NCBI GenBank assembly: GCA_903872505.1
Contig: CAIQKV010000050.1
Location: 1 to 57,611 of the forward strand
Length of the DNA: 57,611 nt
Direction: 5' to 3'
Source of the DNA: an uncultured Opitutia bacterium
GTDB taxonomy: Bacteria; Verrucomicrobiota; Verrucomicrobiia; Opitutales; Opitutaceae
The translations under genes and the position numbers were made by a program. This document shows, piece after piece, positions 11,775-32,837 of the stretch (its first letter is position 1; every line of letters begins with the position of its first letter). Under the pieces are notes generated by a model, which was not told where the DNA came from, ran no database searches, and saw only the letters and a list, made by a program, of their open reading frames with translations.

Positions 11775-12169
11775 GAGTATTGCTCCAGGATCTGCGCCAG
11801 GTGGTCAAAGTCCACCGGCTTGCTCACATGCATGATCGCGCCGGCGTCCCGGCAGCGCGCGACGATCTGGTCCATCGCAAATGCCGTCAGGCAGATGACC
11901 GGGATCAGCGCGGTCGCCGGGTCCTGCTTGAGTGCCCGCGTCGCCGTCAGGCCATCCATCTTCGGCATCTGGATGTCCATCAGGATGAGATTGGGCCGGT
12001 GCTGGTGGGCGAGGGCGATCGCCTCGAGGCCGTTGCGGGCCACCACCACCCGGTAGCCGAGTTCGCTGATGATCTCCGCGGTCACCTCCGCAGTCGCGTC
12101 GTCATCCTCCGCCAGCAGGATCGTGCGGCGGACGTCGGCCGGCCCTGGGATTTCAGGTGAGTCAGGCAT
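11771..12169 (-). CDS. Stand-alone receiver-domain response regulator
   Basis: 132 residues from the ATG at 12169; essentially a receiver domain with no output domain. Acidic pocket EDDD (21-24), phospho-acceptor D65 in LILMDIQMPKMDG, switch Thr in CLTAFA and Lys in VSKPVDF. Its start lies inside the end of the upstream histidine kinase gene (8-base overlap), so the two are translationally coupled and this is the likely phosphate acceptor for that kinase, which lacks its own receiver. Last gene of the seven-gene signalling operon. An upstream ATG at 12217 would add 16 residues of Pro-rich sequence and is less likely. Confidence 0.93.
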   Translation of the reverse strand: MPDSPEIPGPADVRRTILLAEDDDATAEVTAEIISELGYRVVVARNGLEAIALAHQHRPNLILMDIQMPKMDGLTATRALKQDPATALIPVICLTAFAMDQIVARCRDAGAIMHVSKPVDFDHLAQILEQYS

Positions 12170-14654
12170 GGGCAAAGGTGGCGGGTGCAATTCCGACCGG
12201 GATGGCGGGCAACTCAACCGTGAAGCGGCTGCCCGCGCCGGGAGCGGAGGTCATCGAGATGGTCCCGCCGTGCAGGTCGGTGAGGCGTTTGACGATCGTG
12301 AGGCCCAAGCCGGTGCCGGCGTATTGCCGCACCAGGCGGCTGTCGATCTGCTCGAAGGGCCGGAACAGGCGCGCCTGCTCGTCCGCCGACAGGCCGATGC
12401 CCGTGTCCCAGACCGTGAACTGCAGCCGGCGGCCCTCGTCGGTGGCGGCGACGTCGATGCCGATGGCGCCGCCCTCCGGGGTGAATTTCACCGCATTGCT
12501 GAGCAGGTTGTAGAGGATCTGCCGCAGGCGCCGCTTGTCCGCCGTCAGCCGGGAGGACTCCAAGGCGACCTTGAGGGTGAACGTGAGCCGGCCCTGGGCG
12601 CACTCCTCGTGGAAGAAGTCCTCGCATTCATCGAGGAGCTGCGCGACATCGACCGGACCGACTTCCGATTCGATCTTGCCCGCCTCCAGCTTGGCCAGGT
12701 CCAGGATGTCGTTGATCAGCACCAGCAGGTGGTCCGAGCTGGCCTTGATGCGGGCGATGCGCGTGGCCTGCGCTGGGCTCAGCGGATCGGTCGCGGAGCG
12801 CTGCAGCAGGTGGATGTTCCCCAGGGCCACGTTGAGCGGCGTGCGCAGCTCGTGGCTGACCGTAGCGAGGAACTCCGTCTTGGCCTGGTTGGCGCGTTCC
12901 GCGGCCTGCCGGGCCGTCTCCAGATCCAGGGTGCGCTCCCGCACGCGCTCGTCCAGCTCGCCGGTCAGCGTGACGAGTTCGGCGTTGCTGCGCTCGCGTT
13001 CCGTCACCGCCTGCTCGAGGTTGGCGTTCGTGTCCGCGAGGCTGACGGCGGCATTGCGCAGTTCCATCGCCAGGGTCCGCCATTCGGTCGGCAAGAGGCC
13101 CCGCGGCAGGGCCAGCGGCGGCGGATTCCTGCGCCGGACCAGGTCGTGGGCATAATTGACGATGTCTTGGAACGGCTGGGTGAAGCGGTCCGACGTGGTG
13201 CGCGAGAGCAGGAAGGCCAGCCCCAGCGCCCCGATCAGCCCGATCCCCTCGAGCAGAAGGAAGCGGGCCACCGGGGCCTCGCTGGCCCAGACTTCCTCCC
13301 GCAGGTAGATCCTCCAGCCGAGATTCGGCACGGTGTGCCAGATTCCGAGGTAACGCTGATAGACGCCGGTCCGCGGGTCCGGCATATCATCCATGACCAA
13401 CTCGTCCAGCAGGTTGCGGGCGGGGAGCCGATAGAGGTCGGAACTCGCGAAGTTCTCGCCGAATCCCTTCCGGAAAATGACGCGGGAGTGCTGGTCCAGC
13501 ACGAGGATTTCGCGCTGCTGCACCTCCGGGTGGAGGAGCACCAGGTCGCGCATCCGGTTCAGATGCAGCGAGCCCTCGATCACCATCCGGCGGCCCTCGG
13601 CCGAGGCGTAGGCCGCGCTGATGCCGACGATCAGGTCGTGGCCGAACCCGCGGCCGCGAAACACGGGGCTGATGTAGGCCCGGCCGCCCGTCCGGGGCTG
13701 CAGAAAATAGTCCCGGTCCGCCACGACGGTCAGGGTGACGGGCTTGCCCGCCGCGGTCCGGGGCTGCTGGGGCGCGATGACGCGCCCGGCCTCGTCCGCC
13801 ACAAGCATGGAGATGAAGCCGCTGTTGTTCGCGGCGAGCCGGGTCAGCATGGAATCGAGGATTTCGGGCCGGGTCGGGCGGCCTTCCAGGGCATCCGCCG
13901 TGCTCTCGATCGCCTGGACGTGGTTGGCCACGTAGGTGGCGATGACTTCGCTGGTCCGGTTGGTGACGCGGACCAGATCGGCCTGGGCGTCGTGGCGGTG
14001 CTGCCGGTTGACGATGAAGGCGGCGCCGACGGCAAATCCCGCGGCCGGGAGCACGGCGATGATGATGAAGCGCCGGTAGAGATTCCACCGCAGGCTTTCC
14101 TCGCGGTTGGTCAGCCGGGACAATTCCCCGGGCAGCCGCAGAAACGACCGCGTGTACACGAGGAACTGCACCACCACGTAGACGAGCAGGCCATTGACCG
14201 GGTACTTGATCACCATCGCCCAGTCGTGCGGAAACGGCGGGCGCAACAGGCCGAGGATGCAGATCGCGGTCACCGGCAGGCCCAGCACCGCCCAGTAGGT
14301 CACCGTGGCCTGAAACAAGGTCTTTCCCCGCCGATGCAGGAGCCATCCGATCGTCCACGCCTCGAGGGAAAACACCAACAGGCCATAGGGGTGGCCCCAG
14401 CCGGCGACGGTCTCAAGATACGTTCCGACGGCGGTGAGCAGACCCCACCACGGACCGTAGGCGACCACCATGAGCAGAGGGAATACGCCGCCAAAAACCA
14501 GCGAGGTGCCGCCAAAGACGGGAATATTGACGCCATTCAGCAGGTAGCCGCATGTGGCAGCGGCCAGGCAAACGATCGCCCGGCGGCTGCTCGGGGTGAG
14601 CCAGGCGCCCGGCCCGGAGGTTGGCGGCCACGACCCGGTGTCAGTGGGTGACAT
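12162..14654 (-). CDS. Membrane sensor histidine kinase (multi-TM, extracytoplasmic Cache-like, HisKA-HATPase)
   Basis: 830 residues. An N-terminal block of about six transmembrane helices (30-170), another helix near 205-225 (FIIIAVLPAAGFAVGAAFIV), a 250-residue extracytoplasmic region of double-Cache type (VADRDYFLQPRTGGRAYISPVFRGRG, DLIVGISAAY), a further helix near 455-475, a coiled coil (DTNANLEQAVTERERSNAELV), HisKA with H601 in VSHELRTPLN, and HATPase with NLLSNAVKFTPEGG, DTGIGLS and GTGLGLTIVKRL. No receiver; the lone receiver downstream overlaps it. The start overlaps the preceding kinase gene by 14 bases. It senses a small molecule or envelope state; the ligand is unknown. Confidence 0.93.
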   Translation of the reverse strand: MSPTDTGSWPPTSGPGAWLTPSSRRAIVCLAAATCGYLLNGVNIPVFGGTSLVFGGVFPLLMVVAYGPWWGLLTAVGTYLETVAGWGHPYGLLVFSLEAWTIGWLLHRRGKTLFQATVTYWAVLGLPVTAICILGLLRPPFPHDWAMVIKYPVNGLLVYVVVQFLVYTRSFLRLPGELSRLTNREESLRWNLYRRFIIIAVLPAAGFAVGAAFIVNRQHRHDAQADLVRVTNRTSEVIATYVANHVQAIESTADALEGRPTRPEILDSMLTRLAANNSGFISMLVADEAGRVIAPQQPRTAAGKPVTLTVVADRDYFLQPRTGGRAYISPVFRGRGFGHDLIVGISAAYASAEGRRMVIEGSLHLNRMRDLVLLHPEVQQREILVLDQHSRVIFRKGFGENFASSDLYRLPARNLLDELVMDDMPDPRTGVYQRYLGIWHTVPNLGWRIYLREEVWASEAPVARFLLLEGIGLIGALGLAFLLSRTTSDRFTQPFQDIVNYAHDLVRRRNPPPLALPRGLLPTEWRTLAMELRNAAVSLADTNANLEQAVTERERSNAELVTLTGELDERVRERTLDLETARQAAERANQAKTEFLATVSHELRTPLNVALGNIHLLQRSATDPLSPAQATRIARIKASSDHLLVLINDILDLAKLEAGKIESEVGPVDVAQLLDECEDFFHEECAQGRLTFTLKVALESSRLTADKRRLRQILYNLLSNAVKFTPEGGAIGIDVAATDEGRRLQFTVWDTGIGLSADEQARLFRPFEQIDSRLVRQYAGTGLGLTIVKRLTDLHGGTISMTSAPGAGSRFTVELPAIPVGIAPATFAHA

Positions 14655-19983: not shown

Positions 19984-21836
19984 GGGCTGGAGGGGTGGGC
20001 GGCCGCGACCGGCTGGTGCAGGGGAAAGTACAATTCGAACGTGGTGCCGGCATCCTCGGCGCTGCTGAACGCGATGCGCCCGTGGTGGCAATCCACCGCA
20101 CGTTTCACGATCGCCAGTCCCAGGCCGGTCCCCGGAGTCACCCCGACGTTGGCGGCCCGGAAGAAGGCCGAGAATACCTTGTCCTGCTGCTGGAGGGGGA
20201 TGCCCCGGCCCTGGTCGCGGATGCGGAACGCCAGTTCGTCCCCCGCGGAGGTGACCTGGATGGCAACCTTGGTCGAGGCGGGTGAATACTTGAGCGCGTT
20301 GGAAATCAGGTTCTCGAAGGCGGCGCTGAGCAGGTTCTCGTCGGCGTGGAGGGTGAGTTCCGGCGGCACGGCGCAGGTCAGTTCCAGCCGGGGATCCGTC
20401 GTGAGGGTCGTGTCGTTGAACCGGGTGACGAGCGCGGTGACCAGCTCCGCGACCGGCACCGGCTTCAGCTCGATTTCTTCCGTGTTGTACTCCAGACGGT
20501 TCAGGAACAGCACCTGGTCCACCAACTCCTTCAGCGACCGGATGGACTCCGCCTGCAGGTCGAAGTACCGGGTCACTTTCTCGTCGACCCCCTTGTCGAT
20601 CCGCTTCCGAAGCAGGAAATGGGCGCCCTGCATGGCCGTGAGGGGCGTGCGGAATCCGTGCGAGATCATGGACACAAACTCGCGCTGCATGGTGAACAGT
20701 TCGTACTGGTGGTCGGCGACCTTGGCCGCCTCCCGCTCCAGCCGCGTCCGCTGCGTGATATCGAGGTAGATGCCGCCAATTTGCTGCACCTGCCCGGCTT
20801 GGTCGAAGATCGGAAACTTCGCGATTTCCAGTTCCAGGGCGCCGTCCGGCCGATGCAGCAGCCCCACCCGACTCACGGCGTTACGCGTGCGCAGGATCTC
20901 ACGGTCAAATTGCTCAAGCTGCTCGGCCTCATCACGCGGAAACACCTCGTGCGCGCGGCGTCCGATCACTAGATTCGGTGCGATGCCGAGCATCTCGGAT
21001 CCACGTTGGTTGATAAAGATGTAAGGCCCGTCCACCTGCTTGATCACGACGGCGGCCGGCACGTGATCGACGAAGCTGCGGAACAGTGCCTCGCTGGTCG
21101 CCAACCGCTCGTGCATCTCCACCTCGGGGCTGCGGTCGCGGCAGTTGCAGGCAATGCCGCCGTCGGGCAGCAGGGAAAGGGTCAAGTCCTCGCTGAAGGC
21201 GGTTCCGTCCTGTCGTTGCGCCGGCATCACGCCGTGCCAGTGTCCTTCGGATTGAAGGGCCGGGAAAGCCTCCGCCTGGATATGCTGCACGCCTTCCGGC
21301 GAATAGAGGATCTGCCAGGGCTTGCCCAAGACCTCCGCTTGGTCCTTGAAGCCGAAGATCCGCAGATGCTCCGGGTTCATGTACGTGAAGCAGCCGGCGG
21401 CATCGGTCAGGGCAAACCCCTCGCGGGATTTTTCGAGGCCCTGCAGGAGCCCCTTCGACTTGGCGTCGATCGCCGTCAGCGGCGAGGCGGACTGGCCGGT
21501 CAATTCCCCCTCCCTGGGCGTGAAGGTCACGATCGCCTCATTCGGGCCCGGGTTGAAAATCTGGAGGGTGGTGGTTTCCGCCTTGGTGCCGGCGGATGCC
21601 ACGTCTGCCTGGCCGCCAGGATGCGCGGAGCCGCCAAAGATCCAGTGGCCCGCCAGGGCCGAGCGCTGCGTCGCCAGTTGGCGCGCGACCAGCGCGACGG
21701 GGCTCGCGGGGTCGCCCACCGCGAGCCAGCCGGAGCCGGGCGAACCCGCCACGACGGTGCATTGGATCGCGCGACTGGTGCCCGTGCGGCAAAACTTCAG
21801 GACTCCGGCCAGGGGCGGGCGCAGCCCGGCGTTCAC
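19980..21836 (-). CDS. PAS-PAS histidine kinase with an altered H-box
   Basis: 618 residues from GTG 21836, which overlaps the stop of the LuxR-type regulator gene (GTGA). Residues 1-140 are an input region I do not recognise (CTVVAGSPGSGWLAVGDP...). PAS1 at about 145-265 (REGFALTDAAGCFTYMNPEHLRIFGF), PAS2 at about 270-380 (VPAAVVIKQVDGPYIFINQRGSEMLG), HisKA, and HATPase (NLISNALKYSPAST, DQGRGIPL, GTGLGLAIVKRAV). The H-box reads MISHGFRTPLT: H393 is present but the acidic residue that normally follows it is Gly394 (codon GGA, against GAA/GAG for Glu). No membrane span, so cytoplasmic. Likely partner of the overlapping response regulator. Confidence 0.93.
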   Translation of the reverse strand: MNAGLRPPLAGVLKFCRTGTSRAIQCTVVAGSPGSGWLAVGDPASPVALVARQLATQRSALAGHWIFGGSAHPGGQADVASAGTKAETTTLQIFNPGPNEAIVTFTPREGELTGQSASPLTAIDAKSKGLLQGLEKSREGFALTDAAGCFTYMNPEHLRIFGFKDQAEVLGKPWQILYSPEGVQHIQAEAFPALQSEGHWHGVMPAQRQDGTAFSEDLTLSLLPDGGIACNCRDRSPEVEMHERLATSEALFRSFVDHVPAAVVIKQVDGPYIFINQRGSEMLGIAPNLVIGRRAHEVFPRDEAEQLEQFDREILRTRNAVSRVGLLHRPDGALELEIAKFPIFDQAGQVQQIGGIYLDITQRTRLEREAAKVADHQYELFTMQREFVSMISHGFRTPLTAMQGAHFLLRKRIDKGVDEKVTRYFDLQAESIRSLKELVDQVLFLNRLEYNTEEIELKPVPVAELVTALVTRFNDTTLTTDPRLELTCAVPPELTLHADENLLSAAFENLISNALKYSPASTKVAIQVTSAGDELAFRIRDQGRGIPLQQQDKVFSAFFRAANVGVTPGTGLGLAIVKRAVDCHHGRIAFSSAEDAGTTFELYFPLHQPVAAAHPSSP

Positions 21837-22552
21837 GTGGAGGCCCCCCGGGGCGCGGAATTGCCCGCCGCTGGCTGGGCCTCGATTTCCAGCCAACCCT
21901 GGGCGACCGCCAGGACGATCAGGTCCTCGTTGGTCCGCGCCGTGAACTTGTCACGGAGCTTCATGAGGAGCTTGTAGATCATGGAGACGCTGAGATCGAG
22001 TTCGGTGGCGATTTCCTTCACCACCGCGCCCCGCGCGAGACTCCGCAGGATCGCCCGCTCCTGCGCGGCCAGGGTGGATTGCTTCAACCCGCCCATCACG
22101 GCTTCGCGCAGCAGGGCGCTGGCCTGCGCGCCCAGGTAGGTTTGCCCTTCGCGCACGCGGTTCACCGCCTCGACCAACTCGGAGAAAGGGGCGGATTTTT
22201 CCAAGAATCCGTGGGCGCCGAGCCGGATCGCCTCCTGCACCACCTGCATGGTGCAGGACGCGGTGAACACGAGGACGTTGATGTGGGGGTAATCCCGCTT
22301 CACCTCCGCCAGCAGGGCGAAACCGACGCTCCTTTCCGGCAGTCCGATGTCCAGCATCACGAGGTTCGGACTGGTGGTCGCCAAGGCCTCGCGCGCCGTC
22401 GCGGCATCGTAGGCGATTCCGGCGAGCGCATAGCCCTCTTGCTGGGTGATAAAGTCAGCCAAGAGCCGGGCGATGGAATGGTGATCATCGACGACCAGGA
22501 CACGACATACGCATGAGGGTGAGGCTGGGAGGTCTTTTGATGTGGCGGGCAC
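21833..22552 (-). CDS. NarL/LuxR-type response regulator
   Basis: 239 residues, GTG start at 22552. A receiver domain with VDDH (21-24) and phospho-acceptor D68 (LVMLDIGLPERSVG), switch region VFTAS and EKSAPF (Lys), then a C-terminal LuxR-type helix-turn-helix at about 155-220 (LAAQERAILRSLARGAVVKEIATELDLSVSMIYKLLMKLRDKF). The recognition helix follows the family pattern. It is the first gene and the only DNA-binding protein of the seven-gene operon, so it is the probable transcriptional output and perhaps its autoregulator. The 400 bases upstream are AT-rich and include a TATAAT (complement at 22597-22602) about 45 bases before the start. Confidence 0.95.
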   Translation of the reverse strand: MPATSKDLPASPSCVCRVLVVDDHHSIARLLADFITQQEGYALAGIAYDAATAREALATTSPNLVMLDIGLPERSVGFALLAEVKRDYPHINVLVFTASCTMQVVQEAIRLGAHGFLEKSAPFSELVEAVNRVREGQTYLGAQASALLREAVMGGLKQSTLAAQERAILRSLARGAVVKEIATELDLSVSMIYKLLMKLRDKFTARTNEDLIVLAVAQGWLEIEAQPAAGNSAPRGAST

Positions 22553-23112: not shown

Positions 23113-23189
23113 TGGCGGGATGGACGGGACTCGAACCCGCGACCTTCTGCGTGACAGGCAGACGCTCTAACCAGCTGAGCTACCACCCC
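23113..23189 (-). tRNA. tRNA-Asp (GTC)
   Basis: 77 nt with encoded CCA. Acceptor GGGGTGG pairs with CCATCCC (one G-T), discriminator G73 as expected for Asp, D-arm GCTC/GAGC, anticodon loop CTGTCAC giving GTC, T-arm GCGGG-TTCGAGT-CCCGT. A terminator follows immediately. Confidence 0.97.
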
Positions 23190-23289
23190 GTGAATCGGGA
23201 AAGAGGCGGAACGTAGAATCGAGGTCAGGCAAGTCAAGAGTGGTTTCACCCTGATTGCCTGACCCCGGGCCCAGCCGGGCGCGATGGGC

Positions 23290-24729
23290 TCAGAAAGCGA
23301 TCCAGGCTTCCAGATAAAGCGTGTTGTTGCCGGACGCGTTCGCTCCGGCCCCGTCGTAGTTGTTGCGGGCCCCGTCGAAGCGGTTGTACATGGTGTACTG
23401 GAGCGAGAACTTGACGTTGCTGCGGGGCCAGAAGGCCGGTCCGCCGTTCTTGTTGAAGGGCAGGTAATCCGCCTGGAAAACGAAGCCGTCGCTCGCCGGG
23501 GAACCGTTCTGGCTGCCCGAGTACAGGATCTCATCCTTGCTGCCGGTGATGGAGAAATACTGCACGGTCAATCCGTAGGTCTTGTCGTGCAGGTAACTGG
23601 CGGTGACCTTGAAGCTGTCGAGCGAGTCCGACAGGTTTTCAGTGTCGCCCAGTGCCTCGCTCGCATTCCAGCTCTGGTGCTCGTGAATCCAGGAAGCCAG
23701 CAGGGCAAAGTCCCCGTGTGCAGTGGGGCATTGGTACTGGGTATCGAACCCGTAATCCGTGAGGCGGTCGGAGCCTTCGCTGGAGTCGCGCCCGGGGTAG
23801 ATCGAAGCGGACATCCCGAAGGTGCCGATTTCCCAACGGCCCTCGCCCGCCGGCCGTTCGAACGCGAAGCGCCAGTACGGTGCCAGCTTGGAGATTTGGG
23901 ACTCCCCGGTGGGATCGACGCCCATCGATTTTTGAAAGCTGGTGGAGAGCGTCCGGTAACCGGCGACATCGAAATAGAAGCGGTCGTTGACCATCGCATA
24001 GGCGCCAAAGCCGCCGACCTGCTGGGAGACGCCGCCCTCGATCAGGGTCGCTGCGGCCGGGGTGGGTGCCAGGCCGGAACCGCTGAAGGGAAAACCGAAG
24101 GCCGGCGTGCTGTTCCACGGATCCTGAAAGGCCGGGTTGTTGTTTGCATAGACGCCGTAGACCACGTCGTTGTCGCCGGCCTCCGCCTTGTTGGCGAAGC
24201 GCAGCTCGGTGTTGTCCCAGGCCCATTTTTTGGCGATGCCATCATAGGTGACTTGGGCGAAGATGCCGAATTTGTTGGCCACGGCGGCACCGTTGGTTCC
24301 GAAAATGTCCTTGGCGAAGGACCCGAAGAGGCGGCCGGCGTAGAAGATGCTGGCCTGCGTCATCGCGTAATTGTTGTTGTCGCCGAAGCCCGGCGCCGCG
24401 CCGCCCGCCTGCGCCGTGTTGGTGCTGGTGATCGAGGGCATGAGCATGACGGCGAGGGGCAGCTGTTTGCCGCTGTCCGCGCTCTCCGTGTACCCGGTCA
24501 GCTTGAAGGTGCGGCCAAACTGGTTGAGCATGGGGAACTCCGTGTGGCAGGCCGTGCATTGCATGTCCATTTGACGGGCAAAGCTGGGCAGGGCCCGGGC
24601 CGTGGTGGGTGCGAGCATGAGACCAATCGCGAGCAAGGCGAAGCCGCCAAAGGTCGCGCGCAGCCCGGGGCCGCGACGATCCTTGGTGCCCGGGGGTGGG
24701 GTTTCGGGATTCTTGGGGTCGGTTTTCAT
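23290..24729 (-). CDS. Outer-membrane beta-barrel with N-terminal haem c motif, Cyc2-like
   Basis: 479 residues from the ATG at 24729. A signal peptide (about 1-46, hydrophobic FALLAIGLMLAPTTARA), then ALPSFARQMDMQCTACH with one CxxCH (58-62), followed by FPMLNQFGRTFKLTGYT. That run matches the pattern of Cyc2 outer-membrane cytochromes ('FARQ..M.C..CH...P.LN.FGR.FK..GY'). The rest is a string of alternating beta strands with aromatic girdles ending in a C-terminal Phe (YLEAWIAF), typical of a porin-like barrel. The length fits fused Cyc2 proteins, which move electrons across the outer membrane. Last gene of the cytochrome operon, 72 bases after the hexahaem gene. Fe(II) oxidation is not shown; other extracellular donors or acceptors are possible. 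Confidence 0.85.
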   Translation of the reverse strand: MKTDPKNPETPPPGTKDRRGPGLRATFGGFALLAIGLMLAPTTARALPSFARQMDMQCTACHTEFPMLNQFGRTFKLTGYTESADSGKQLPLAVMLMPSITSTNTAQAGGAAPGFGDNNNYAMTQASIFYAGRLFGSFAKDIFGTNGAAVANKFGIFAQVTYDGIAKKWAWDNTELRFANKAEAGDNDVVYGVYANNNPAFQDPWNSTPAFGFPFSGSGLAPTPAAATLIEGGVSQQVGGFGAYAMVNDRFYFDVAGYRTLSTSFQKSMGVDPTGESQISKLAPYWRFAFERPAGEGRWEIGTFGMSASIYPGRDSSEGSDRLTDYGFDTQYQCPTAHGDFALLASWIHEHQSWNASEALGDTENLSDSLDSFKVTASYLHDKTYGLTVQYFSITGSKDEILYSGSQNGSPASDGFVFQADYLPFNKNGGPAFWPRSNVKFSLQYTMYNRFDGARNNYDGAGANASGNNTLYLEAWIAF

Positions 24730-24801
24730 TAGGTGGTGAACGGTTGAGTGTGGAGTGGGTTGAGCCAGAGGCGGCGGGATGTTGCACCGCACGCCGCCGG
24801 C

Positions 24802-26190
24802 CTAGAAGCCGAGGTCTTTATCCTTGGTGCTGAGGCTGAAAACATAGGCGGCCAGGTCGTCGAGCTCGCCTTCCTGGATCACGCCGCGCCAGGGCGGCAT
24901 GTAGAGCGGGGGCGGCGGACGGTGGGGATCGAGTGGGGCGATTTCCTTCTGGCCGCGCAGCAGCAGGATTTTCAACTCGTCCTTGGTGTAGCCGTCGGCG
25001 ACATGCTGCAGGCCGGGCACCTGCTCGGCGGTCTTGGCGTTCGGGTTCGGCACGCCGCCCTTGCCCTCGGGTCCGTGGCAGCCGATGCAGCCATACTTGC
25101 GGAACACCTCCCGGCCACGCTCCACGGGCGAGATCATGCCGGGGAGGCTGAGCGAGACCTGCTGGTCGCGCAGGTGCAGCAGGAACTCCGTCAGGGCCCG
25201 GGTCTGGTTCTCGGAGAAGCCGAATTTCGGCATGACCGAGCCGGGCGTGACCGACTGCGGATCGCGGAAGTGGCGCATGATCCAGTCGGGCGACCGGCGG
25301 AGGCTGACGTCATCGAGGGCGGGACCGATCTTGCCGCCCCGGTTGGCGATGGAATGGCAGCCGATGCAGCCCTTCTGCTCGAAGAGCTTGCGGCCCTCCG
25401 TGGCACTGGGAATCACCTTCATCGAGGCGTAGTAGCCGGGCAGGCCGCCGCCGGTCTGGCTCAGCATGAACAGGGTGATCGCCTCGAGGTCGGGCTCGGA
25501 AAGCTTCTGCGGGGGCATGCCGGAGCCGGGTGTGACGGACGCCGGGTCGGTGAAATGCTTCCGCAGCCAGTCGGGTGTGCGCCGGGCGCCCACCGTGTCC
25601 AGTTCCGGTCCGATCAACCCGCCGGTGCCGCCGAGCTTGTGGCAGCCGCGGCAGCCGTTCGTCTCAAAGACCTGCTCGCCGCGAGCCAGCTTGGGTGCGG
25701 CCGGGTTGTCGGCGGCCTGGTGGCACTGGCCGCAGGACGCCTGGATGTAGCGGAGCGGCAGCATGGGTTCGTCCCAGTGCTCGGCGTGGCCGTGGGCGGC
25801 GGCGGTCGTCGTGGCGCGGCCCTGCCCGCGATGGCAGACGGTGCAGCCGAACTTGTCGAAGGGGTGCTGGTCGTGATGCGGGTGGTACGCCAGCGGCTGC
25901 GGGTAGCCGCCGTAGCTGGGATCCTCGGAGGCGATATGGCACGTCGTGCACCGGTCGACCCGGTTGAGGTCGGGGAGCACGATCTGCCGGATCTGCACCG
26001 GCGTGCTTTCCGCCAGCAGGCGCTGCTGCGGGGTGGTGGCCCGCCGGACTTCCTCCTTCACGAACTGATGCTGGTAGGTCTTCCAGTCCCGGAACTGGTC
26101 CTTGTAATAGCCGAGGACGACGAGGACGCTCACGAGCAGCCCGAGGACGATGAACAGGCCGTAAAACTTGCGCGGGGATTCGTCGGGCAT
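24802..26190 (-). CDS. Membrane-anchored hexahaem cytochrome c
   Basis: 462 residues: a transmembrane anchor (about 10-28), then six CxxCH haem motifs at residues 81-85, 116-120, 153-157, 180-184, 275-279 and 368-372. The first three lie in a multihaem-like segment rich in His (YHPHHDQHPFDKFG). The last three are class I cytochrome c domains, each followed by GxIGPxLDxVxxRRxPDW...GSxMP, which supplies a Met ligand. Periplasmic, attached to the inner membrane. It directly follows cytochrome b (1-base gap) and would take electrons from, or give them to, the Rieske/cytochrome b pair, replacing cytochrome c1/f. Tandem fusion of di- and monohaem modules is likely. Confidence 0.95.
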   Translation of the reverse strand: MPDESPRKFYGLFIVLGLLVSVLVVLGYYKDQFRDWKTYQHQFVKEEVRRATTPQQRLLAESTPVQIRQIVLPDLNRVDRCTTCHIASEDPSYGGYPQPLAYHPHHDQHPFDKFGCTVCHRGQGRATTTAAAHGHAEHWDEPMLPLRYIQASCGQCHQAADNPAAPKLARGEQVFETNGCRGCHKLGGTGGLIGPELDTVGARRTPDWLRKHFTDPASVTPGSGMPPQKLSEPDLEAITLFMLSQTGGGLPGYYASMKVIPSATEGRKLFEQKGCIGCHSIANRGGKIGPALDDVSLRRSPDWIMRHFRDPQSVTPGSVMPKFGFSENQTRALTEFLLHLRDQQVSLSLPGMISPVERGREVFRKYGCIGCHGPEGKGGVPNPNAKTAEQVPGLQHVADGYTKDELKILLLRGQKEIAPLDPHRPPPPLYMPPWRGVIQEGELDDLAAYVFSLSTKDKDLGF

Positions 26191-26191
26191 G

Positions 26192-27478
26192 TCAGTGTTC
26201 CTCCCTTGCCGCCGGCGGCTCCTTCCAAGGCACCTGCCACGACCAGTTGGGGCCGCGGAAAACCGTCCCGATGATGGTCAGCACGACCATGACGAGCAGG
26301 CAGACGGAGAAGATCGTGTTCGCGACCGCCCGTTCGCGGGCAAACCAGCGGCCCACGCCGGCACGGCCCCGGTCGAAGAACGGCAGCAGCGCCAGCAGGG
26401 CGACGAGCAGGCCGGGCACGACCACGCCGCCCCAGAACGCCGAGTAGCTCACGAGTTCCTGCAGCCCGAGGAAATACCACGGGGCCTTGGCGGGATTCGG
26501 CGGATGGATCGGGTTGGCAAACTGCTCGAGCGGGGCATCCCAGAAGACGGCCAGGCTGAGCACGAGGGCGAGCACCGCGAGGAAGACGAGCAGCTCGCGG
26601 AACAACAGGTGCGGCCAGGAGGACACGAGGTCCTCGGGGTCCACGCCGACCTGCGGGCTCGTGCCCTTGGCCAGTTCCATGAGCCCGTAGCTTTTGTTGG
26701 TGGGCAGCTGGCCGGCATCGAGCTGTTCCACGGCTTCCAGCGGCTCGTCGGGCCGGGCCAGGCCGCCGTCCTTGCGGACCCGCCAGATGTGCACCGCGAT
26801 CATGAACCCGGCCACGGCCGGCAGCACAATCACGTGGAGCGCGTAGAAGCGGATCAGCGCTTCCTGACCCACGACGTTGCCGCCGAGGAGCAGGTATTTG
26901 AGCTTGGGGCCGACGACGGGCGCGTAGGAGGCGATGTTGGTGCCGACGGTGATCGCCCAGAAGGCCAGCTGGTCCCACGGCAGCAGATAGCCGGTGAAGC
27001 TGAGCCCCAGTGTGAGCAGGAACAGCCCCACGCCGAGCAGCCAGTTGAATTCGCGCGGCCGCTTGTACGCCCCGGTGTAGAACACGCGGCACAGGTGCAG
27101 TATCACGGCCAGCACCATCAGATGGGCCGACCAGCGGTGCATGTTGCGGATCAGTAGGCCGGCCGAGACGACGAACTCCAGGTCCTTCATGCCGTTGTAG
27201 GCGCGCTCGGTGCTCGGCACGTAGTAGAACATCAGCAGCACCCCGGTGACCGTCAGGATCGCGAAGAGGAACAGCGAGATGAGCCCGAGCCCGAGGGTGG
27301 TGGCGGGCTGGAGCGTGCGTTTCTGCACCTTGGCCGGCTGCAGGTGCAGCAGGAAGCTGGAGACCATCGCCTGCGCCCGGGCGAGGTTGCTCCGCGGCAC
27401 GCCGACCCGGAAGATCGCGCGGCCGGGGGTGGTCTGCTCGAACCACTGCCAGAGTCGGACGGGAAGGGGCGGCTTCAT
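26192..27478 (-). CDS. Cytochrome b of a Rieske/cytochrome b (bc-type) complex
   Basis: 428 residues, about ten hydrophobic helices: the four-helix haem-binding core with His pairs in [18 protein letters not shown] and [19 protein letters not shown], then a C-terminal part fused on (b6 plus subunit IV-like). The Qo-site segment reads [15 protein letters not shown], so the usual PEWY is APWY, as seen in several menaquinone-using lineages. It would oxidise or reduce quinol in the inner membrane. Its start overlaps the Rieske gene stop (ATGA) and its end abuts the hexahaem gene, so the three subunits are co-translated. No cytochrome c1 gene is present. Confidence 0.96.
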
Positions 27479-27945
27479 ACGACGAGGTATTTGTCGGACT
27501 CGACGGGCTGGCCCTTGTCGACCAGCAGCCGCTCATCCTTGCTCAGGGTCACGAGGTACCAGGTCAGGGCCCGCGGGGCCGGGCCGCTGGTCACCTTGCC
27601 CTGGCTGTCAAAGGTGCTGCCGTGGCACGGGCAGTGGAACCCCTCGCCGGAGTGGTTGACGGTGCACCCGAGGTGGGTGCAGGTGGACGACAGGCAGCGG
27701 AAGGTGTTGCCGCGCCGGATGAGGAAGACGCGCTGGTCCTCGAGGAAGGTGATCGCGCCGTCGGGGTAGTCTTCCGGCCGGCCGGCCTTGAACCGCTGGT
27801 CCGGCTCGTAGAGCACGTTGGGGACGAGGAAACGGACGGCGCCGATGCCGGCGGCCAGCCCGGCGAACGCGCCGGCCGTCCAGCCGCAGGCCAGGGCGAT
27901 GAATCCGCGGCGGGTGACGTCGGAGTTGGGGGTGGGTGGGTTCAT
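27475..27945 (-). CDS. Rieske iron-sulfur protein
   Basis: 156 residues from the ATG at 27945. N-terminal TRRGFIAL (11-18) is a Tat-like motif followed by a transmembrane anchor (about 15-40). The [2Fe-2S] cluster motifs are CTHLGC (89-94) and CPCHGS (105-110), then GPAPRAL and a beta-strand end. It carries electrons from quinol oxidised at cytochrome b to the c-type haems. The frame is open upstream to 28278 but that stretch overlaps the oxidoreductase gene and lacks protein character. The stop of the upstream gene is one base away; the end overlaps cytochrome b by 4 bases. Confidence 0.96.
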
Positions 27946-27946
27946 G

Positions 27947-29869
27947 TCAGGCAGGCAAAAGTTCGACGCGCTCCATGGTGATTGCCCCGGTCGGGCAGCG
28001 CGCGGCGCACAAGCCGCAGCGGATGCAGCGCAGCTCGTCCTTGATGATCGCGGCCTGCTCGCCGGGCAGGGGCGGGCGGCCGTAGCGGGCCAGGACGGCC
28101 GCCTGCAGCTGGGCGTTGCCGCGCAGCCGGGCGATGTCCACGAGGCGCAGGCAGGATTCCGGGCAGACGTCGGCGCAGCCGCCGCACAGGATGCACTCGT
28201 CGCCGTTGAAGACCGGGCCCATGTGGCAGACGAGGCAGCGCTCGGCCTGCTGCCGGGCCGCGGGCTCGGGAAAGGCATGCTCCACCTCCGCGATGCCGAT
28301 GCGGCGGTCGAGCGAGAGCATCGGCGGCGTGCTCCGGGGCCGGGTCTCGTAACCCGATTGCAGCGGAAAGCGCCCGGTCGGATAGGTCGTGATGCGGGCG
28401 GTGCGCGGCTCCGGGGGCGTCTGGCCCGTCAGGTACGTCGCGATGGAACGCGCCGCCCGCTTGCCCTCGGCCACGGCGGTGATGATGATGCGCGGGCCGA
28501 AGGCGACGTCGCCGCCGGCGAAGATGTCGGGCCGCGAGGTCGCCAGCGTGCGCGGGTCGGCCTGGAGCGATCCGCGCGGCGTGACTTTCAGGTCGTCCTC
28601 CGGGCGGATCCAGCTGAGGTCGGCGGTCTGGCCGATCGCCAGCACCACGGTGTCGCAGTCGACGGCCTCCTCGCTGCCCTCGATGAACTGCGGATTGAAG
28701 CGGCGGTTCTCGTCGAACACCCGGCTGCAGCGGACCAGCTCGATGCCCGTGAGCTTGCCGTCCTGGCCGTAGATGCGCTTGGGCCCGTAGCGGGTGTGGA
28801 GGCGGATACCCTCCCGCTCGGCCTCCTCGATCTCCTCGTGGGCCGCGGGAATCTCGTCGAGGCTCTCGAGGCAGTACATGTGCACCTCGGGCACGCCCTT
28901 GCGGATGGCCTCGCGGGCGACGTCGAGGGCGAGGCGCACCTGGTCCGGCGCCTCGGGTTCCTGCGCGGTGAGCTGCTCGAGGGCCGCGGCCGCCTGCTGC
29001 AGGGAGGAACGCAGCTCCTTCTCGGTCATGCCCGCCATGCGCTCGGTCTGGCGGAGCACCGAGCGGGCGACGTCGAAGGCCACGTTGCCGCCGCCGATCA
29101 CGACGACCTTGCGGCCCATCGTCACGCGGTAGCCGAGATTGATGTTGAGCAGGAAATCGATGGCCCGGAGCACGCCGTCGAGCTGCACGCCCTCGATCGC
29201 CATCTCCCGGCTCTTGTGGGCGCCGATGCCGAGGAAGACCGCCTCGAAACCCTGCCGCTTCAGGTCGGCGAGGGAAAAGTCGCGCCCCAGCCGGCTGTTG
29301 GGTTTGATTTCGACGCCGAGGGATGCGATCGCGTCGATCTCGGCCTGGATGACGTCGCGGGGCAGCCGGTACTCGGGCACGCCGAGCACGAGCATCCCGC
29401 CGGAGATCTGCTGCGCCTCGAACACCGTCGGGGCAAAGCCCATCAGGGCGAGGTCGTGGGCGCAGGACAGGCCCGCGGGCCCGCCGCCGACCACCGCCAC
29501 GCGGCGCCCGCCGCCCAGCTTGCCGGCCACGGGCTGGTTTTTGTCCGGGTAGATGCGCGCCAGGTCGAAGGCGGACGACTCGACCCCGTGTTTTTCGCAG
29601 ACAAACCGCTTGAGTGCCCGGATGGACACGGCGGCATCCAGGGCGCCGCGCCGGCATTTCGCCTCGCAGGGGGCCGCGCAGACGCGGCCGCAGATCGACG
29701 CGAACGGATTGGGCGTGCGCGCGATCACGTAGGCGTCCTCGTCGCGGCCCTCGGCGATGGCCTGCACATACCCGCCGGAGTCGGTGCCGACCGGGCAATG
29801 CTCCCGGCACAGCACCTGCCGCGTGAAGTACTTCACGTCGGGCACCTCGACGGTGTAGGTGGCGGGCAT
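27947..29869 (-). CDS. FAD/Fe-S NAD(P)H oxidoreductase, GltD-like with C-terminal ferredoxin domain
   Basis: 640 residues. N-terminal Cys-rich GltD-type region (C21, C25, then C60, C64, C68, C72 for [4Fe-4S] clusters). FAD-binding motif [15 protein letters not shown] (127-141), a second dinucleotide motif [17 protein letters not shown] for NAD(P)H, and [21 protein letters not shown] closing the FAD site. The C-terminus carries a two-cluster ferredoxin domain ([29 protein letters not shown]). This is the NAD(P)H-facing module of an operon that otherwise encodes a quinol:cytochrome complex. Comparable sets are known in anammox planctomycetes, where NAD(P)H oxidoreductase subunits sit beside Rieske/cytochrome b genes. 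Likely a soluble subunit on the cytoplasmic side. Confidence 0.94.
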
Positions 29870-29885
29870 GGTCCGGGACGCGCCG

Positions 29886-30356
29886 CTATTTCTTGCCGGG
29901 GTCGGCGAGGATTTCCTTGATCTTGGCCTCCTCGGCGGCGCGCACGTCGGCGGCCAGCTTGGCCAGCTTCTCGTCGACCATCGCCTTCTTGCGCACGGCC
30001 GAGTCGTAGACGAGGAACGTGTAGATCTTCTTGCCGGCGCCGGTGGAAATGTTCGAGCCCGGCTTGAACATCATGCGTTTCACGTAGCGCGACCACTCGT
30101 CGGGCAGGGCATAGTCGGAATTGATGGGCCGGCTGAGCTTGTGGCACAGCGCGCATTTTTCGCGGAAGACCTCGTAATTCGCCTTGATGGGCGCGGGATA
30201 CGCCGAGACGTCGATCGAGGCGGGGCCCTTTTCAAAGCGGTCGACGCGCGCCTGGGTCTCCGGGTCGAGTTTCTTGTCATCCGCGCGGAGCACTCCGGCG
30301 GCCAGCAGCAGGGCGGACAGGGCCCAGGGGACATATTTGGTGATAGGCGAATGCAT
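29886..30356 (-). CDS. Periplasmic monohaem cytochrome c
   Basis: 156 residues from the ATG at 30356. A signal peptide (KYVPWALSALLLAAGVLRA) then one CALCH haem site at 68-72, with a helical C-terminus (DEWSRYVKRMMFKPG, KKAMVDEKLAKLAADVRAAEEAKIKEI). A Met in RYVKRMM could be the sixth ligand. No class I c-type Met loop of the usual form, so the family is not certain. First gene of the electron-transfer operon, 16 bases before the oxidoreductase gene; it may shuttle electrons between the Rieske/cytochrome b complex and other partners. Between its start and the regulator gene lie 164 bases that probably hold the operon promoter. Confidence 0.93.
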   Translation of the reverse strand: MHSPITKYVPWALSALLLAAGVLRADDKKLDPETQARVDRFEKGPASIDVSAYPAPIKANYEVFREKCALCHKLSRPINSDYALPDEWSRYVKRMMFKPGSNISTGAGKKIYTFLVYDSAVRKKAMVDEKLAKLAADVRAAEEAKIKEILADPGKK

Positions 30357-30520
30357 TTTTTTCGGGGTTGAGGGCTGTCGGGATCGCACCGGGGGCCGAA
30401 TTGCCGGTGCCATCACCGGGGTCGTGCTCCAGCACAAGTGCCTTTATAGCAGCTCCCTTCCCCGGGGGCTACCGGGTGGTTGGCATAGACTGCTGGCGGA
30501 TTGTCCGCCCCTCCCGCCGG

Positions 30521-31429
30521 TCAGCCGGTCAGATTGGCGCTCGAGGGCAATTCCCGCTTCAGCGACTCGCGATACTCGGTCGGCGAAACTCCGGCGTAGC
30601 GCCGGAAGACGCTGTTGAACTGCGGAATCGACCCGAAACCCGCGGCATAGGCGGCCTCGGAGATCCGGACCGACGGGTTGACGAGCAGGGTCTTGGCTTT
30701 TTCCAGCCGCATGCGCGCCACGTGCTCGGTCAGGGTCATGCCCGTCGCCTTCTTGAACAGCTTGCAGAAATAGAACCGGCTCACGCCCACATGCTGCACC
30801 ACCTGTTCCAAGCTGATCGGCTCGGCGAGGCGTGCCTCGATGTAGTCCTTGGCCTTGGTCACGGCGGCCGGCTCCGCCGGGCCCCGGGCAATCGCCTGGT
30901 GCGTGGCGTATTCCCCGACGTAGTCCGCAAACAGGCCGAGCATCTGGACAATCGCCTGCAGGCGGTCCGCGGTCACCACCGGGGTCACGAAATACGCCTG
31001 CCGCGCCTCGCGCCGCCATTTCTCGTCTGTTTCCTTCCCGACCATCCGGGCGATCATCGCGAAATCGCGCTCGGTCGCCTCGCGCCGGAGCACCTGCCCG
31101 CTCAGCATGGTGGCGAGGTGGGTTTCGCCGACCATGATCGGGACCGCGACGTCGGTCAGCCCCGCGAAACAGTTCATCTGATACGGGGCGCGCCGGTTGG
31201 CCGCCCCCTCCAGCGCCCGCGACTGTGCCTCGTGGCAGGCCTCGCAGCCTGCGGGGGTGCCGGCGACGAAATGGCAGAACGCGTTTTCCCCGAGCCCGAC
31301 TTCCAGTCGCTGCGCGGCCGCCCCGGGCGGCACGATCTTGAGCGGAACCCCCGTCGCCTTGCGGAATGACTCCTCGTAGAACTTGATCACTGGCAGCTTG
31401 GCCAGCTCGCTGAACGACAGGAGGTTCAT
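30521..31429 (-). CDS. PocR/AraC transcriptional regulator
   Basis: 302 residues. Residues about 10-165 are a PocR sensory domain (FCHFVAGTPAGCEACHEAQSRALEG, NCFAGLTDVAVPIMVGETHLATMLSGQV) with conserved Cys52, Cys62 and Cys65; such domains bind small ligands or redox-active compounds. Residues about 195-295 are the AraC/XylS double helix-turn-helix (ISLEQVVQHVGVSRFYFCKLFKKATG and VRISEAAYAAGFGSIPQFNSVFRRYAGVSPTEYR). Same strand and directly upstream of the cytochrome operon, so it is the likely regulator of those six genes. CEACH resembles a haem site but the protein has no signal peptide. Confidence 0.93.
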   Translation of the reverse strand: MNLLSFSELAKLPVIKFYEESFRKATGVPLKIVPPGAAAQRLEVGLGENAFCHFVAGTPAGCEACHEAQSRALEGAANRRAPYQMNCFAGLTDVAVPIMVGETHLATMLSGQVLRREATERDFAMIARMVGKETDEKWRREARQAYFVTPVVTADRLQAIVQMLGLFADYVGEYATHQAIARGPAEPAAVTKAKDYIEARLAEPISLEQVVQHVGVSRFYFCKLFKKATGMTLTEHVARMRLEKAKTLLVNPSVRISEAAYAAGFGSIPQFNSVFRRYAGVSPTEYRESLKRELPSSANLTG

Positions 31430-31637
31430 CCGGTAATGATTCTAGTGGGTCCGGCTTGATTCACAAGCCTGCAGCCGGGACCAGCTGGTTCCGTACCCAA
31501 ACCGGTTGTTCAAACCGAAGACGTTCAAGGATCGTTCTCGGTTTCGCCGGAATTTCGTAACCCGGACGACCAGCCCCGATACGCCTTCCTACTGGGCTCG
31601 GTCATTTGCGGCGCGTTGCGCTTTGCTGTGGCTCTCC

Positions 31638-32654
31638 TCACGAACCCGCCGCGCCGCCACGCTTCGGCTTCGCCGGGAGACCCGTGCGGGCCGACGCATA
31701 GATCGCGTCCATCAACTCGCTCTGCACGATGCCGTTCTGCAGCGAGGTGCGGGGCGCGGCCCGGCCGAGGATGGCGTCGACAAAATTGTCGTCCGGCGTC
31801 TGCCGCCGGCCGGGGATGACGGGGTATTTCACTTTGCCGGCGCGGTCCCAGACGTGGATCCACTCGCCGCTCCAGCCGTCGATGTCGACGCGGCCGTTCT
31901 CGAACATGAAGTGCATCGCCGCCCCGTCGGCCGGGCAGTTGCCGCTGACGACGATGCTCGCCAGCACGCCGCTGGTGAAACGCAGGTTGATCGCCGCGTT
32001 GATGTCCACCGGCGTGCCGTGGTTGTCCAGAAACGCGAAGACCTCGGCGATGTCGGACTCCACCGTCCAGCACAGTGAGTTGAGGAGGTGCGCGCCGCTG
32101 TCATAGGCCTGGCCGCCGCCGGAGAGCTTCGGGTTCTGCCGCCAGCTGCCGGTGGTGAGCCGCATCCAGTCCTGCGAGAGGTAGCCGCTGACGAGTTCCA
32201 GCCGGCCGAAGGTGCGGTTGCGGATGGCGGTGCGCAGCCAGTCGAACTCGGGCGTGCATGGGGTGTTGTAGCCGATCGTGAAAATCTTGCCCGTCGCCTG
32301 GAACCGTGCCGCGAGCGCATGCGCCTGCTCCGCCGAGGTGACCATCGGCTTTTCCATGAGCACGTGCAGCCCGGCGTCGGCCGCGAGCATGGCGTGGTCA
32401 AAATGCAGGGTGTGCGGGGTGATGATCGCCACCGCGTCGAGCCGGGCCTCGCGGAACATCGCGGCGGGGTCGGTGAACAGCCGGGGCCGCGACCCGCCGT
32501 CGCCGAGTTTCAGGCGTGCGATGAACTTTTCCAGGATCTCCGTCGAGACGTCGCAGAGCGCGGCGAGCTCGACGTCGGGGTTTTGGCGGAGGCGCTCGGC
32601 GTGCGTGCCGCCCATGCCGCCGGTGCCGAGGATGGCGATGCGAAGTTTGGCCAT
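31638..32654 (-). CDS. Gfo/Idh/MocA family oxidoreductase
   Basis: 338 residues. N-terminal Rossmann domain with GTGGMGGTHAERL (10-22), then AVAIITPHTLHFDHAMLAADAGLHVLMEKPMV, which includes the EKP motif (catalytic Lys region). The C-terminal alpha/beta domain has GGGQAYDSGAHLLNSLCW with the usual D..H pair and DIDGWSGEWI. The enzyme oxidises or reduces a sugar or related polyol with NAD(P); the substrate cannot be told from sequence. Transcribed alone, divergent from tRNA-Arg. The 208 bases between its stop and the PocR/AraC gene start hold no gene. Confidence 0.93.
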   Translation of the reverse strand: MAKLRIAILGTGGMGGTHAERLRQNPDVELAALCDVSTEILEKFIARLKLGDGGSRPRLFTDPAAMFREARLDAVAIITPHTLHFDHAMLAADAGLHVLMEKPMVTSAEQAHALAARFQATGKIFTIGYNTPCTPEFDWLRTAIRNRTFGRLELVSGYLSQDWMRLTTGSWRQNPKLSGGGQAYDSGAHLLNSLCWTVESDIAEVFAFLDNHGTPVDINAAINLRFTSGVLASIVVSGNCPADGAAMHFMFENGRVDIDGWSGEWIHVWDRAGKVKYPVIPGRRQTPDDNFVDAILGRAAPRTSLQNGIVQSELMDAIYASARTGLPAKPKRGGAAGS

Positions 32655-32760
32655 GGGGGAGGAGCTTGCGCGGGTCCGGCGGGTTTGTCCATCGCCGGTG
32701 GTGGCATGGTTTTGCCCTTGTCGCTTCGCGGGCTGGCCGCTACCCGTGCTGCACCAAAAT

Positions 32761-32837
32761 GCGGTGGTAGCTCAGCTGGATAGAGCAGCGGTTTTCTAAA
32801 CCGCCGGTCGGGTGTTCGAGTCACCTCCACCGCGCCA
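32761..32837 (+). tRNA. tRNA-Arg (TCT)
   Basis: 77 nt with encoded CCA. Acceptor GCGGTGG pairs with CCACCGC, G73, D-arm GCTC/GAGC, anticodon stem GCGGT/ACCGC, loop TTTCTAA giving TCT, T-arm GGGTG-TTCGAGT-CACCT. Reads AGA. Confidence 0.97.

Follow-up and report, generated by a model that had tools for sequence, protein, structure and literature searches.

The joining of an NAD(P)-type oxidoreductase, a Rieske/cytochrome b pair, several c-type cytochromes and an outer-membrane protein in a single run of genes raises the question of what reaction such a set could carry out and in which direction electrons would cross the outer membrane. We addressed it in a stretch of 57,611 nucleotides (the window: positions 1 to 57,611, forward strand, of contig CAIQKV010000050.1 in assembly GCA_903872505.1) from an uncultured Opitutia bacterium of the Verrucomicrobiota. 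A first-pass annotation had described seven genes there: a regulator, a monohaem cytochrome, a FAD/Fe-S oxidoreductase, a Rieske protein, a cytochrome b, a hexahaem cytochrome and an outer-membrane cytochrome. All seven open reading frames are present and intact, in that order on the minus strand from 31429 to 23290 (Table 1), with families assigned by Pfam; the small monohaem protein has no match in Pfam or NCBIfam at 0.01, and Pfam gives nothing for the outer-membrane protein. We identify the core of the operon (29869-24802: oxidoreductase, Rieske protein, cytochrome b and hexahaem protein) as a variant form of the NAD(P)-linked Rieske/cytochrome b complexes of Kuenenia, and the product of the last gene as a Cyc2-like fused cytochrome-porin. 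Our tentative preference is for a quinol-bifurcating NAD+ reductase whose high-potential arm leads to the outer membrane, where the barrel would serve as an outlet.

The relationship with Kuenenia is clearest in the Rieske protein. Its top two matches in the PDB are 9rk4 (1.7e-21) and 9rk3 (2.7e-17), and the Rieske proteins of b6f complexes follow at 1.4e-14 and weaker. The two structures are Kuste4569 and Kustd1480, Rieske subunits of Kuenenia NAD(P)-linked complexes (+303 and +335 mV), so the counterpart that the first-pass annotation had suggested looking for in anammox planctomycetes is there. According to the available parts of the published account, a b6-like cytochrome b and a subunit IV are joined in these complexes by an NAD(P) oxidoreductase and by a hexa- or octahaem protein that replaces cytochrome f. 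A role in NAD(P)H production by bifurcation has been proposed for them, from potentials and models only, and the same parts of the account give no driving reaction so far for Kustd1480-1485. In the window, none of the seven proteins matches cytochrome c1 or f in Pfam at 0.01, and the hexahaem protein stands in that position, as had been suggested. The proposed fusion of GltD-type and ferredoxin domains in the oxidoreductase is likewise borne out by its Pfam domains (Table 1). Hydropathy gives seven hydrophobic segments in cytochrome b, three of them in its C-terminal (subunit-IV) part, and one N-terminal segment each in the Rieske and hexahaem proteins. The five genes from the monohaem to the hexahaem cytochrome are very probably co-transcribed, because the gaps between them are 16, 1, -4 and 1 bp; 164 bp separate them from the regulator and 72 bp from the outer-membrane gene, and these two likely belong to the same predicted transcript.

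We scanned genome contigs with the oxidoreductase as the query, calling open reading frames by a simple composition rule with unrefined starts. Counting each place once gives 24 close loci besides the window (64-80% identity), in metagenome-assembled genomes mostly titled Verrucomicrobia (a few only bacterium); Vicinamibacteria and Longimicrobiales have more distant relatives (our L and G numbers designate loci and genomes). The order oxidoreductase, Rieske, cytochrome b, hexahaem protein, which the first-pass annotation had proposed to look for in other Verrucomicrobia, recurs in 22 of the 24 close loci; in L043 and L057 the contig ends first. Minor irregularities are a 0.9-kb gap between oxidoreductase and Rieske in L045 and a Rieske match in two frames in L046. 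A match to the monohaem protein of the window precedes the core in 18 of the 24; in four its place is taken by another monohaem protein, and the two remaining contigs start at or inside the oxidoreductase. The flanking modules vary. With the window included (25 loci), a Cyc2-like gene follows the hexahaem gene in six (the window, L028, L041, L048, L054 and L059), a porin gene lies ahead of the monohaem gene in 12, of which 11 have a second small monohaem gene, and four carry a tetrahaem/Fe-S/NrfD module; contig ends hide the module in three. The Cyc2-like gene and the porin are mutually exclusive in these loci (the contig extends far enough to judge in 10 of the 12 with a porin).

The complex is patchy in the phylum of the window: 13 of 194 genomes have the cytochrome b at E <= 1e-40. 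A survey that scored three candidates per genome found 6 of 387 genomes to have the oxidoreductase (E <= 1e-130), and none of three congeners; viral contigs searched with it gave no relative. No Rieske or cytochrome b match lies in the stretches that carry 54 more distant GltD-type relatives (33-39% identity), and the Rieske link is therefore confined to this oxidoreductase subfamily and is not a property of GltD-like proteins at large.

Searching from the side of cytochrome b extends the picture to other phyla. This cytochrome b type (E <= 1e-70) occurs in 78 of 297 genomes in the phylum of L061 (Vicinamibacteria) and in 5 of 121 in that of L063 (Longimicrobiales). We took 60 of the 106 places, 59 from the first phylum and one from the second, mostly down the score list with gaps and not at random, several coming from one genome. 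Among these 60 loci, 57 have the oxidoreductase, 60 the Rieske protein and 59 a multihaem gene. Together with the four core genes kept in 22 of 24 close loci, these counts support the earlier view of one functional unit. The first-pass annotation had held that an oxidoreductase always found with other partners would speak against such a unit; searches run in both directions gave no such pattern for this subfamily. The neighbours of the 60 cores, named by BLAST with Pfam and NCBIfam checks on representatives, are a cbb3 oxidase (19), a Cyc2-like protein (17), a molybdopterin oxidoreductase (14), a nitrous-oxide reductase (6) or NrfD (1), with none or a cut-off contig in three; L197 carries both Cyc2-like and NrfD genes. 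Of two molybdenum proteins scored against the type II DMSO reductase model, that of L167 exceeds its cut-off and that of L173 does not, and L174 is above the cut-off of the Sec-dependent NosZ model. As a separate observation, an NAD-linked Rieske complex lies directly ahead of nosZ-type clusters in L063, L174, L182, L183, L185, L187 and L188 (mostly BLAST or Pfam names).

The core proteins share residue-level features, which we counted in part over BLAST matches rather than loci (the totals of 89, 94 and 95 below). Five of the six haem sites of the hexahaem protein are kept in 32 of 32 aligned rows and the sixth in 31, so the observation goes beyond chance; relatives have 5-10 haems. Cytochrome b has His pairs 114/128 and 215/230, which we take to be haem ligands with b6-type spacing. 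His45, ahead of its first helix, is present in all 95 matches covering that position, and of the 95 matches in which the search pattern picked out a Qo motif, 90 have KAPWY; a second, canonical-type cytochrome b in L044 has PEWY. The column of the haem-cN cysteine, which we placed from spinach b6 and the CxGG of L032, is Cys in one of 95 matches and Gly in the window. L032 (G270) itself has two tandem cytochrome b/multihaem clusters and two GltD-like genes, and one of its cytochromes b has the CxGG expected of haem cN. The Rieske motif of the window is CPCHGSTF, with Ser and Phe as in Kustd1480; the position next to CPCHGSx holds Phe in 82 of 89 matches, the other seven having Tyr. In the oxidoreductase, whose PDB relatives are NfnA (9n5u), 9bov/9bp5 and 5t5i (FwdF), 33 of 34 aligned rows retain the cysteines of the ferredoxin domain, and the remaining row is a gap. 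Its nucleotide-binding stretch is x-Cys/Ser-Leu/Ile-Glu in 89 of 94 matches and Tyr-Arg-Arg in the GltD-type paralogues of L059 and L032, where Arg-Arg presumably marks NADP. The Glu-type stretch makes NAD(H) the likelier partner by the usual rules for such folds, which narrows the NAD(P)H of the first-pass annotation.

That annotation had also called the last gene an outer-membrane cytochrome. The placement stands, and we refine the identity to a Cyc2-like fused cytochrome-porin on the strength of a motif and of relatives on plasmids. The haem region reads ALPSFARQMDMQCTACHTEFPML. The Cyc2 consensus given in the available parts of the source is AXPXFAR[Q/K][T/Y], CXXCH and PXL (PMC8406198). 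The window protein reads ALPSFARQM, which departs from this consensus at a single position (Met in place of T/Y), and its close relative in L048 matches exactly. It also has PXL past its CXXCH, a single haem and 479 aa, the minimum for Cyc2 being 365 aa. A relaxed form of the motif occurs in 23 of 96 complex loci and the strict form in 13 of those 23; the 96 include three duplicate pairs (L028/L060, L030/L049, L031/L053) and 26 loci (L038-L063) that hold the oxidoreductase by construction, having been found with it. The background, not matched for phylum, is 0 of 54 loci (L064-L117). An AlphaFold2 model has 16 strands at low confidence (mean pLDDT 54.7, from six sequences), and Foldseek aligns it with OmpF/OprP at TM-scores of 0.38-0.47 on the query. 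The split porin of the porin-bearing loci, which has PDB porin matches, is also modelled with 16 strands at low confidence (pLDDT 53.7). We found no similarity between the fused protein and the split c7/c6 pair (hhalign probabilities of 4.4% and 0.5%) and rejected the idea that they share an origin.

Relatives of the Cyc2-like protein with 27.9-42.3% identity lie on nine plasmid records, from Polymorphobacter, Caballeronia, Methylocystis, Acidiphilium, A. ferrooxidans, Paraburkholderia and Ideonella. A small c-type cytochrome is the next gene downstream in five of the six plasmids examined; the Caballeronia plasmid has in addition a HiPIP upstream, and that of Paraburkholderia a c-type cytochrome two genes upstream. 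Within the phylum of the window, four of 288 genomes encode such a protein (E <= 1e-15). Stand-alone copies occur in G122 (one of two), G257 and G283 (L131 6661-8562, L133 7868-10132, L134 8469-10429), each with a small protein gene next downstream, which is a cupredoxin in L131 and L134; the L134 copy, in G283, is broken. The 17 copies beside cores found via cytochrome b all have the relaxed motif and 12 have the strict one. In L165 and L172 the order is Cyc2, monohaem protein, oxidoreductase, Rieske, cytochrome b and six-haem protein, adjoined by regulator genes that include a histidine kinase. Their monohaem protein is of the same family as that of the window (57-63% over the aligned part), and their Cyc2 belongs to a different clade. 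A tree that took in four of the 17 Acidobacteriota-type copies, and that carries a long-branch warning, splits these four from the window-type clade, which holds proteobacterial copies (100/100). Because the tree separates the two clades, Cyc2 looks to have been recruited beside the core twice.

We infer from these genes a plausible mechanism. Quinol would be oxidised on the periplasmic side of a complex formed by the core proteins. One electron would pass from the Rieske cluster to the membrane-anchored hexahaem protein, acting in place of cytochrome c1/f; the other would take the b haems, perhaps with an extra haem on His45, and reach NAD+ by way of the ferredoxin domain and FAD, the high-potential branch paying for the NADH made from quinol. 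From the hexahaem protein, electrons may continue through the small monohaem cytochrome, which is probably periplasmic, to the Cyc2-like haem at the predicted 16-strand barrel, the putative outlet to a high-potential external acceptor. The first-pass annotation had offered reverse electron flow or bifurcation. We retain the latter, which agrees with what has been proposed for Kuenenia and with the acceptors encoded in sister operons; proton-driven reverse flow is disfavoured because transfer from the b haems to NAD, towards the negative side, would cost membrane potential. An outlet is favoured because sister operons often hold at that place a cbb3 oxidase, a nitrous-oxide reductase or a molybdenum oxidoreductase, most of which can accept high-potential electrons. 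A review, in its available parts, relays the proposal that Cyc2 may serve as terminal ferric reductase in anaerobic A. ferrooxidans. Leakage to menaquinone through haem cN is a large problem in the view of the Kuenenia authors, in the parts of their paper available, and it would be removed in a complex without the haem-cN cysteine. A broader proposition, which we regard as doubtful, is that the operon represents a broad modular class of quinol-bifurcating NAD+ reductases that combine an unchanging Rieske/cytochrome b/NAD core with interchangeable acceptors (O2, N2O, substrates of molybdenum enzymes), in which the Cyc2-family barrel of the window would face outward and an extracellular acceptor would pay for NADH formation from quinol.

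Several observations weigh against this mechanism. The three Cyc2 proteins tested oxidise Fe(II), and that of Mariprofundus has a potential of about +208 mV, which leaves an outlet little energy for bifurcation (PMC8406198, available parts). KAPWY lacks the glutamate of PEWY, and the quinol chemistry may differ accordingly. The His45 column is also His in the PEWY-type paralogue of L044, and its likeness to Kuenenia is one of residue number. Unlike the Kuenenia cytochrome b, that of the window has no haem-cN cysteine and seven helices instead of nine. Four loci have no oxidoreductase (L036, L192, L207 and, at a contig end, L167), four close loci pair the core with the tetrahaem/Fe-S/NrfD module, which is not an obvious acceptor, and pLDDT falls below 50 over the haem portion of the barrel model.

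In a rival reading electrons run inward: the Cyc2-like protein would oxidise dissolved Fe(II) or another outside donor and feed the monohaem/hexahaem pool and thence mainly the terminal oxidases, with the Rieske complex sharing the pool and making NADH from quinol (mixotrophy). The function of the tested family members, the presence of the Cyc2 motif (one position off in the window protein, strict in 13 of the 23 relaxed-motif loci), the relative on an A. ferrooxidans plasmid, the small cytochrome gene next downstream on five of six plasmids and the cupredoxin gene after two stand-alone Verrucomicrobiota copies all fit it, as do a COX1 match in 24 of 24 carriers examined and the record titles of several carriers, sampled from bog, palsa or Lake Pavin. 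On the other hand, acceptors occupy the same place in many sister operons, Met stands in the window protein where the motif calls for Thr or Tyr, and electrons from Fe(II) alone would be unable to drive the complex to NADH. RuBisCO has no match in the window genome or in 16 of the 23 other carriers, so that nothing points to autotrophy through this enzyme; the matches in seven of the 24 carriers mostly cover part of the profile only. Iron oxidation is a real possibility, nearly as likely as electron export, towards which we lean.

Electrons might instead start from NADH in an overflow valve: the oxidoreductase would oxidise it, and the complex would deliver them to quinone or directly, via the hexahaem protein, to the exterior. 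The NAD-type binding signature and the outer-membrane module are compatible with this, and extracellular electron transfer through other porin-cytochromes has been proposed for bog Verrucomicrobia (PMC5615132, available parts). We consider it improbable: a simple valve would have no use for a Rieske protein and a quinol site, sister operons carry cbb3 or NosZ, and the available parts of the Kuenenia account judge NADH-to-quinone use wasteful. Very improbable, in our view, is a shared regulon in which the Cyc2-like protein and the Rieske complex exchange no electrons. Its gene does come last, past the 72-bp gap, and in only six of 25 close loci, the window included, yet the pairing recurs in two phyla and involves two clades of Cyc2, whose gene lies before the core in some loci and after it in others.

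The operon occupies a variable segment of the genus, since two congeners have a short replacement between the same tRNAs. The 9514 bp of the window between tRNA-Asp and tRNA-Arg (23247-32760) correspond to 239 bp in G060, and 23247-32708 correspond to 1174 bp in G372, with the same borders; in these congeners the gap is 0.24-1.2 kb, and tRNA-Arg is 0.3-1.3 kb away from tRNA-Asp. The left flank is collinear in both and 94-95% identical, and what lies right of 33.1 kb is located elsewhere in both. A tRNA-borne integrase island was rejected: the 5' ends of both tRNAs point to the insert and no integrase is among the named genes, for which reasons we call the insert a variable segment only. The segment includes a Gfo/Idh/MocA gene, which we do not think belongs to the system; a search run without a positive control gave no match to it at E <= 1e-40 in G060, G348, G372 and G283. 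Transcripts of the operon may read through into tRNA-Asp, and a pattern scan places three weak 5-pair terminator-like sites and one promoter-like site within the outer-membrane gene.

In the PocR domain of the regulator, cysteines C52, C62, C65 and C87 are invariant in 15 of 15 aligned rows. Its CEACH is probably not a haem site, because it belongs to this invariant set of four in a DNA-binding protein; the four may form a metal- or redox-sensing site. The window also encodes two histidine kinases and one response regulator (12165-14654, 21836-22552, 55656-57548; Pfam). Elsewhere in the genome there are three haem-copper oxidase matches, one of them beside an ACIII-like cluster named from gene order (L148, G000:C107). 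We found no further Rieske/cytochrome b complex in it: the second and third PF00355 proteins (105 and 101 aa) have no cytochrome b gene within 3.2-kb stretches. Another contig (L146, G000:C28) carries genes for an 11-haem protein, a monohaem protein, a tetrahaem protein and Fe-S/NrfD proteins, like the operon neighbours in L028; the 11-haem protein is 73% identical to an L059 protein that contains a cytochrome b561 domain.

Table 1. Position and supporting evidence of the operon genes and neighbouring features in the window.
Feature	Position	Strand	Remarks
Regulator, PocR sensory domain and AraC-type helix-turn-helix	30521..31429	-	302 aa; Pfam PF10114 9.4e-28, PF12833 4.1e-22
Small monohaem cytochrome c	29886..30356	-	156 aa from ATG; one CxxCH
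Flavo-Fe/S oxidoreductase, NAD(P)-type	27947..29869	-	640 aa; Pfam Fer4_20, Pyr_redox_2, C-terminal Fer4
Rieske [2Fe-2S] protein	27475..27945	-	156 aa from ATG; PF00355 2.8e-14
Cytochrome b, fused b6 and subunit-IV type	26192..27478	-	428 aa; PF13631, PF00033, PF00032
Hexahaem cytochrome c	24802..26190	-	462 aa; six CxxCH; Pfam: three cytochrome c stretches
Cyc2-like outer-membrane fused cytochrome-porin	23290..24729	-	479 aa from ATG; one CxxCH; ALPSFARQM, CTACH, PML
tRNA-Asp, directly downstream of operon, left edge of variable region	23113..23189	-	ARAGORN
Gfo/Idh/MocA oxidoreductase, upstream of operon, within variable segment	31638..32654	-	Pfam
tRNA-Arg, right edge of variable region	32761..32837	+	ARAGORN
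Promoter-like site	31466-31439		Ahead of regulator; pattern scan
Terminator-like site, 9-pair	23107-23087		Just past tRNA-Asp; pattern scan

NAD(P)-making Rieske complexes were previously known from anammox bacteria. Related cores beside cbb3 oxidases, NosZ, molybdenum oxidoreductases and Cyc2-like porins allow the idea of bifurcation to be tested in further organisms and through genome context. The Cyc2 family is in use as a marker of iron oxidation; since it is here tied to a complex that could run outward, cyc2 alone may not indicate iron oxidation in Verrucomicrobiota and Acidobacteriota.

Among known systems, cytochrome bc1 and b6f share with the window the Rieske cluster ligands and, as we assume, the b6-type haem spacing of cytochrome b; they differ in that the window has no c1 or f match, has KAPWY for PEWY and includes an NAD module in the operon. 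The Geobacter Ext operon (ExtP/ExtQ/ExtS, selenite and tellurite reduction) provides the top NCBIfam names for cytochrome b, and ExtS that for the hexahaem protein; we rejected membership, all scores being under the curated cut-offs (270.9 vs 290, 79 vs 150 and 78.7 vs 100 bits). The porin-multihaem clusters of Trout Bog Verrucomicrobia are, like the barrel of the window, a proposed outer-membrane electron conduit (PMC5615132, available parts), but pair a porin of at least 20 predicted segments with an eight-haem protein, and a Rieske protein is never mentioned in that paper. Candidatus Manganitrophaceae, according to the available parts of PMC9040806, likewise combine Cyc2 with a discussed bifurcating membrane complex fed from outside (TO_2); theirs, however, is a bd-like oxidase complex that divides Mn(II) electrons between O2 and quinone, and those parts describe no Rieske or NAD module. 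In the available parts of the open-access literature (including PMC12954380, PMC8406198, PMC10654088, PMC8357290, PMC7029218, PMC12285243, PMC5615132, PMC8790237 and PMC9040806) we found no description of Cyc2 with an NAD-linked Rieske complex.

The window protein resembles the Cyc2 proteins (A. ferrooxidans Cyc2, Mariprofundus Cyc2PV-1 and Leptospirillum Cyt572) in its single N-terminal haem, AxPxFAR[Q/K], PxL, length of about 480 aa, 16-strand barrel predicted at low confidence and small soluble electron carrier encoded nearby, and differs from them in the Met at the T/Y position and in the NAD-linked Rieske complex of the same cluster. The closest system overall is that of Kuenenia. Like kustd1480-1485, the operon has a Rieske protein, a b6-type cytochrome b, a GltD/NfnA-like NAD(P) oxidoreductase and a multihaem protein replacing c1/f. 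The Kuenenia authors, in the available parts of their account, modelled their oxidoreductase subunit on NfnABC (9bp5) and FwdF (5t5i), which are PDB relatives of ours too, and proposed His43/His62 as the ligand of the extra haem, close in number to our His45. Subunit IV is a five-helix protein there and fused with cytochrome b here, and the window has monohaem and Cyc2-like genes where Kuenenia has an HAO-like enzyme. Because haem cN and the five-helix subunit IV are missing, both traits of the Kuenenia models that we did not count as defining, we regard the window complex as a variant and not as the same complex.

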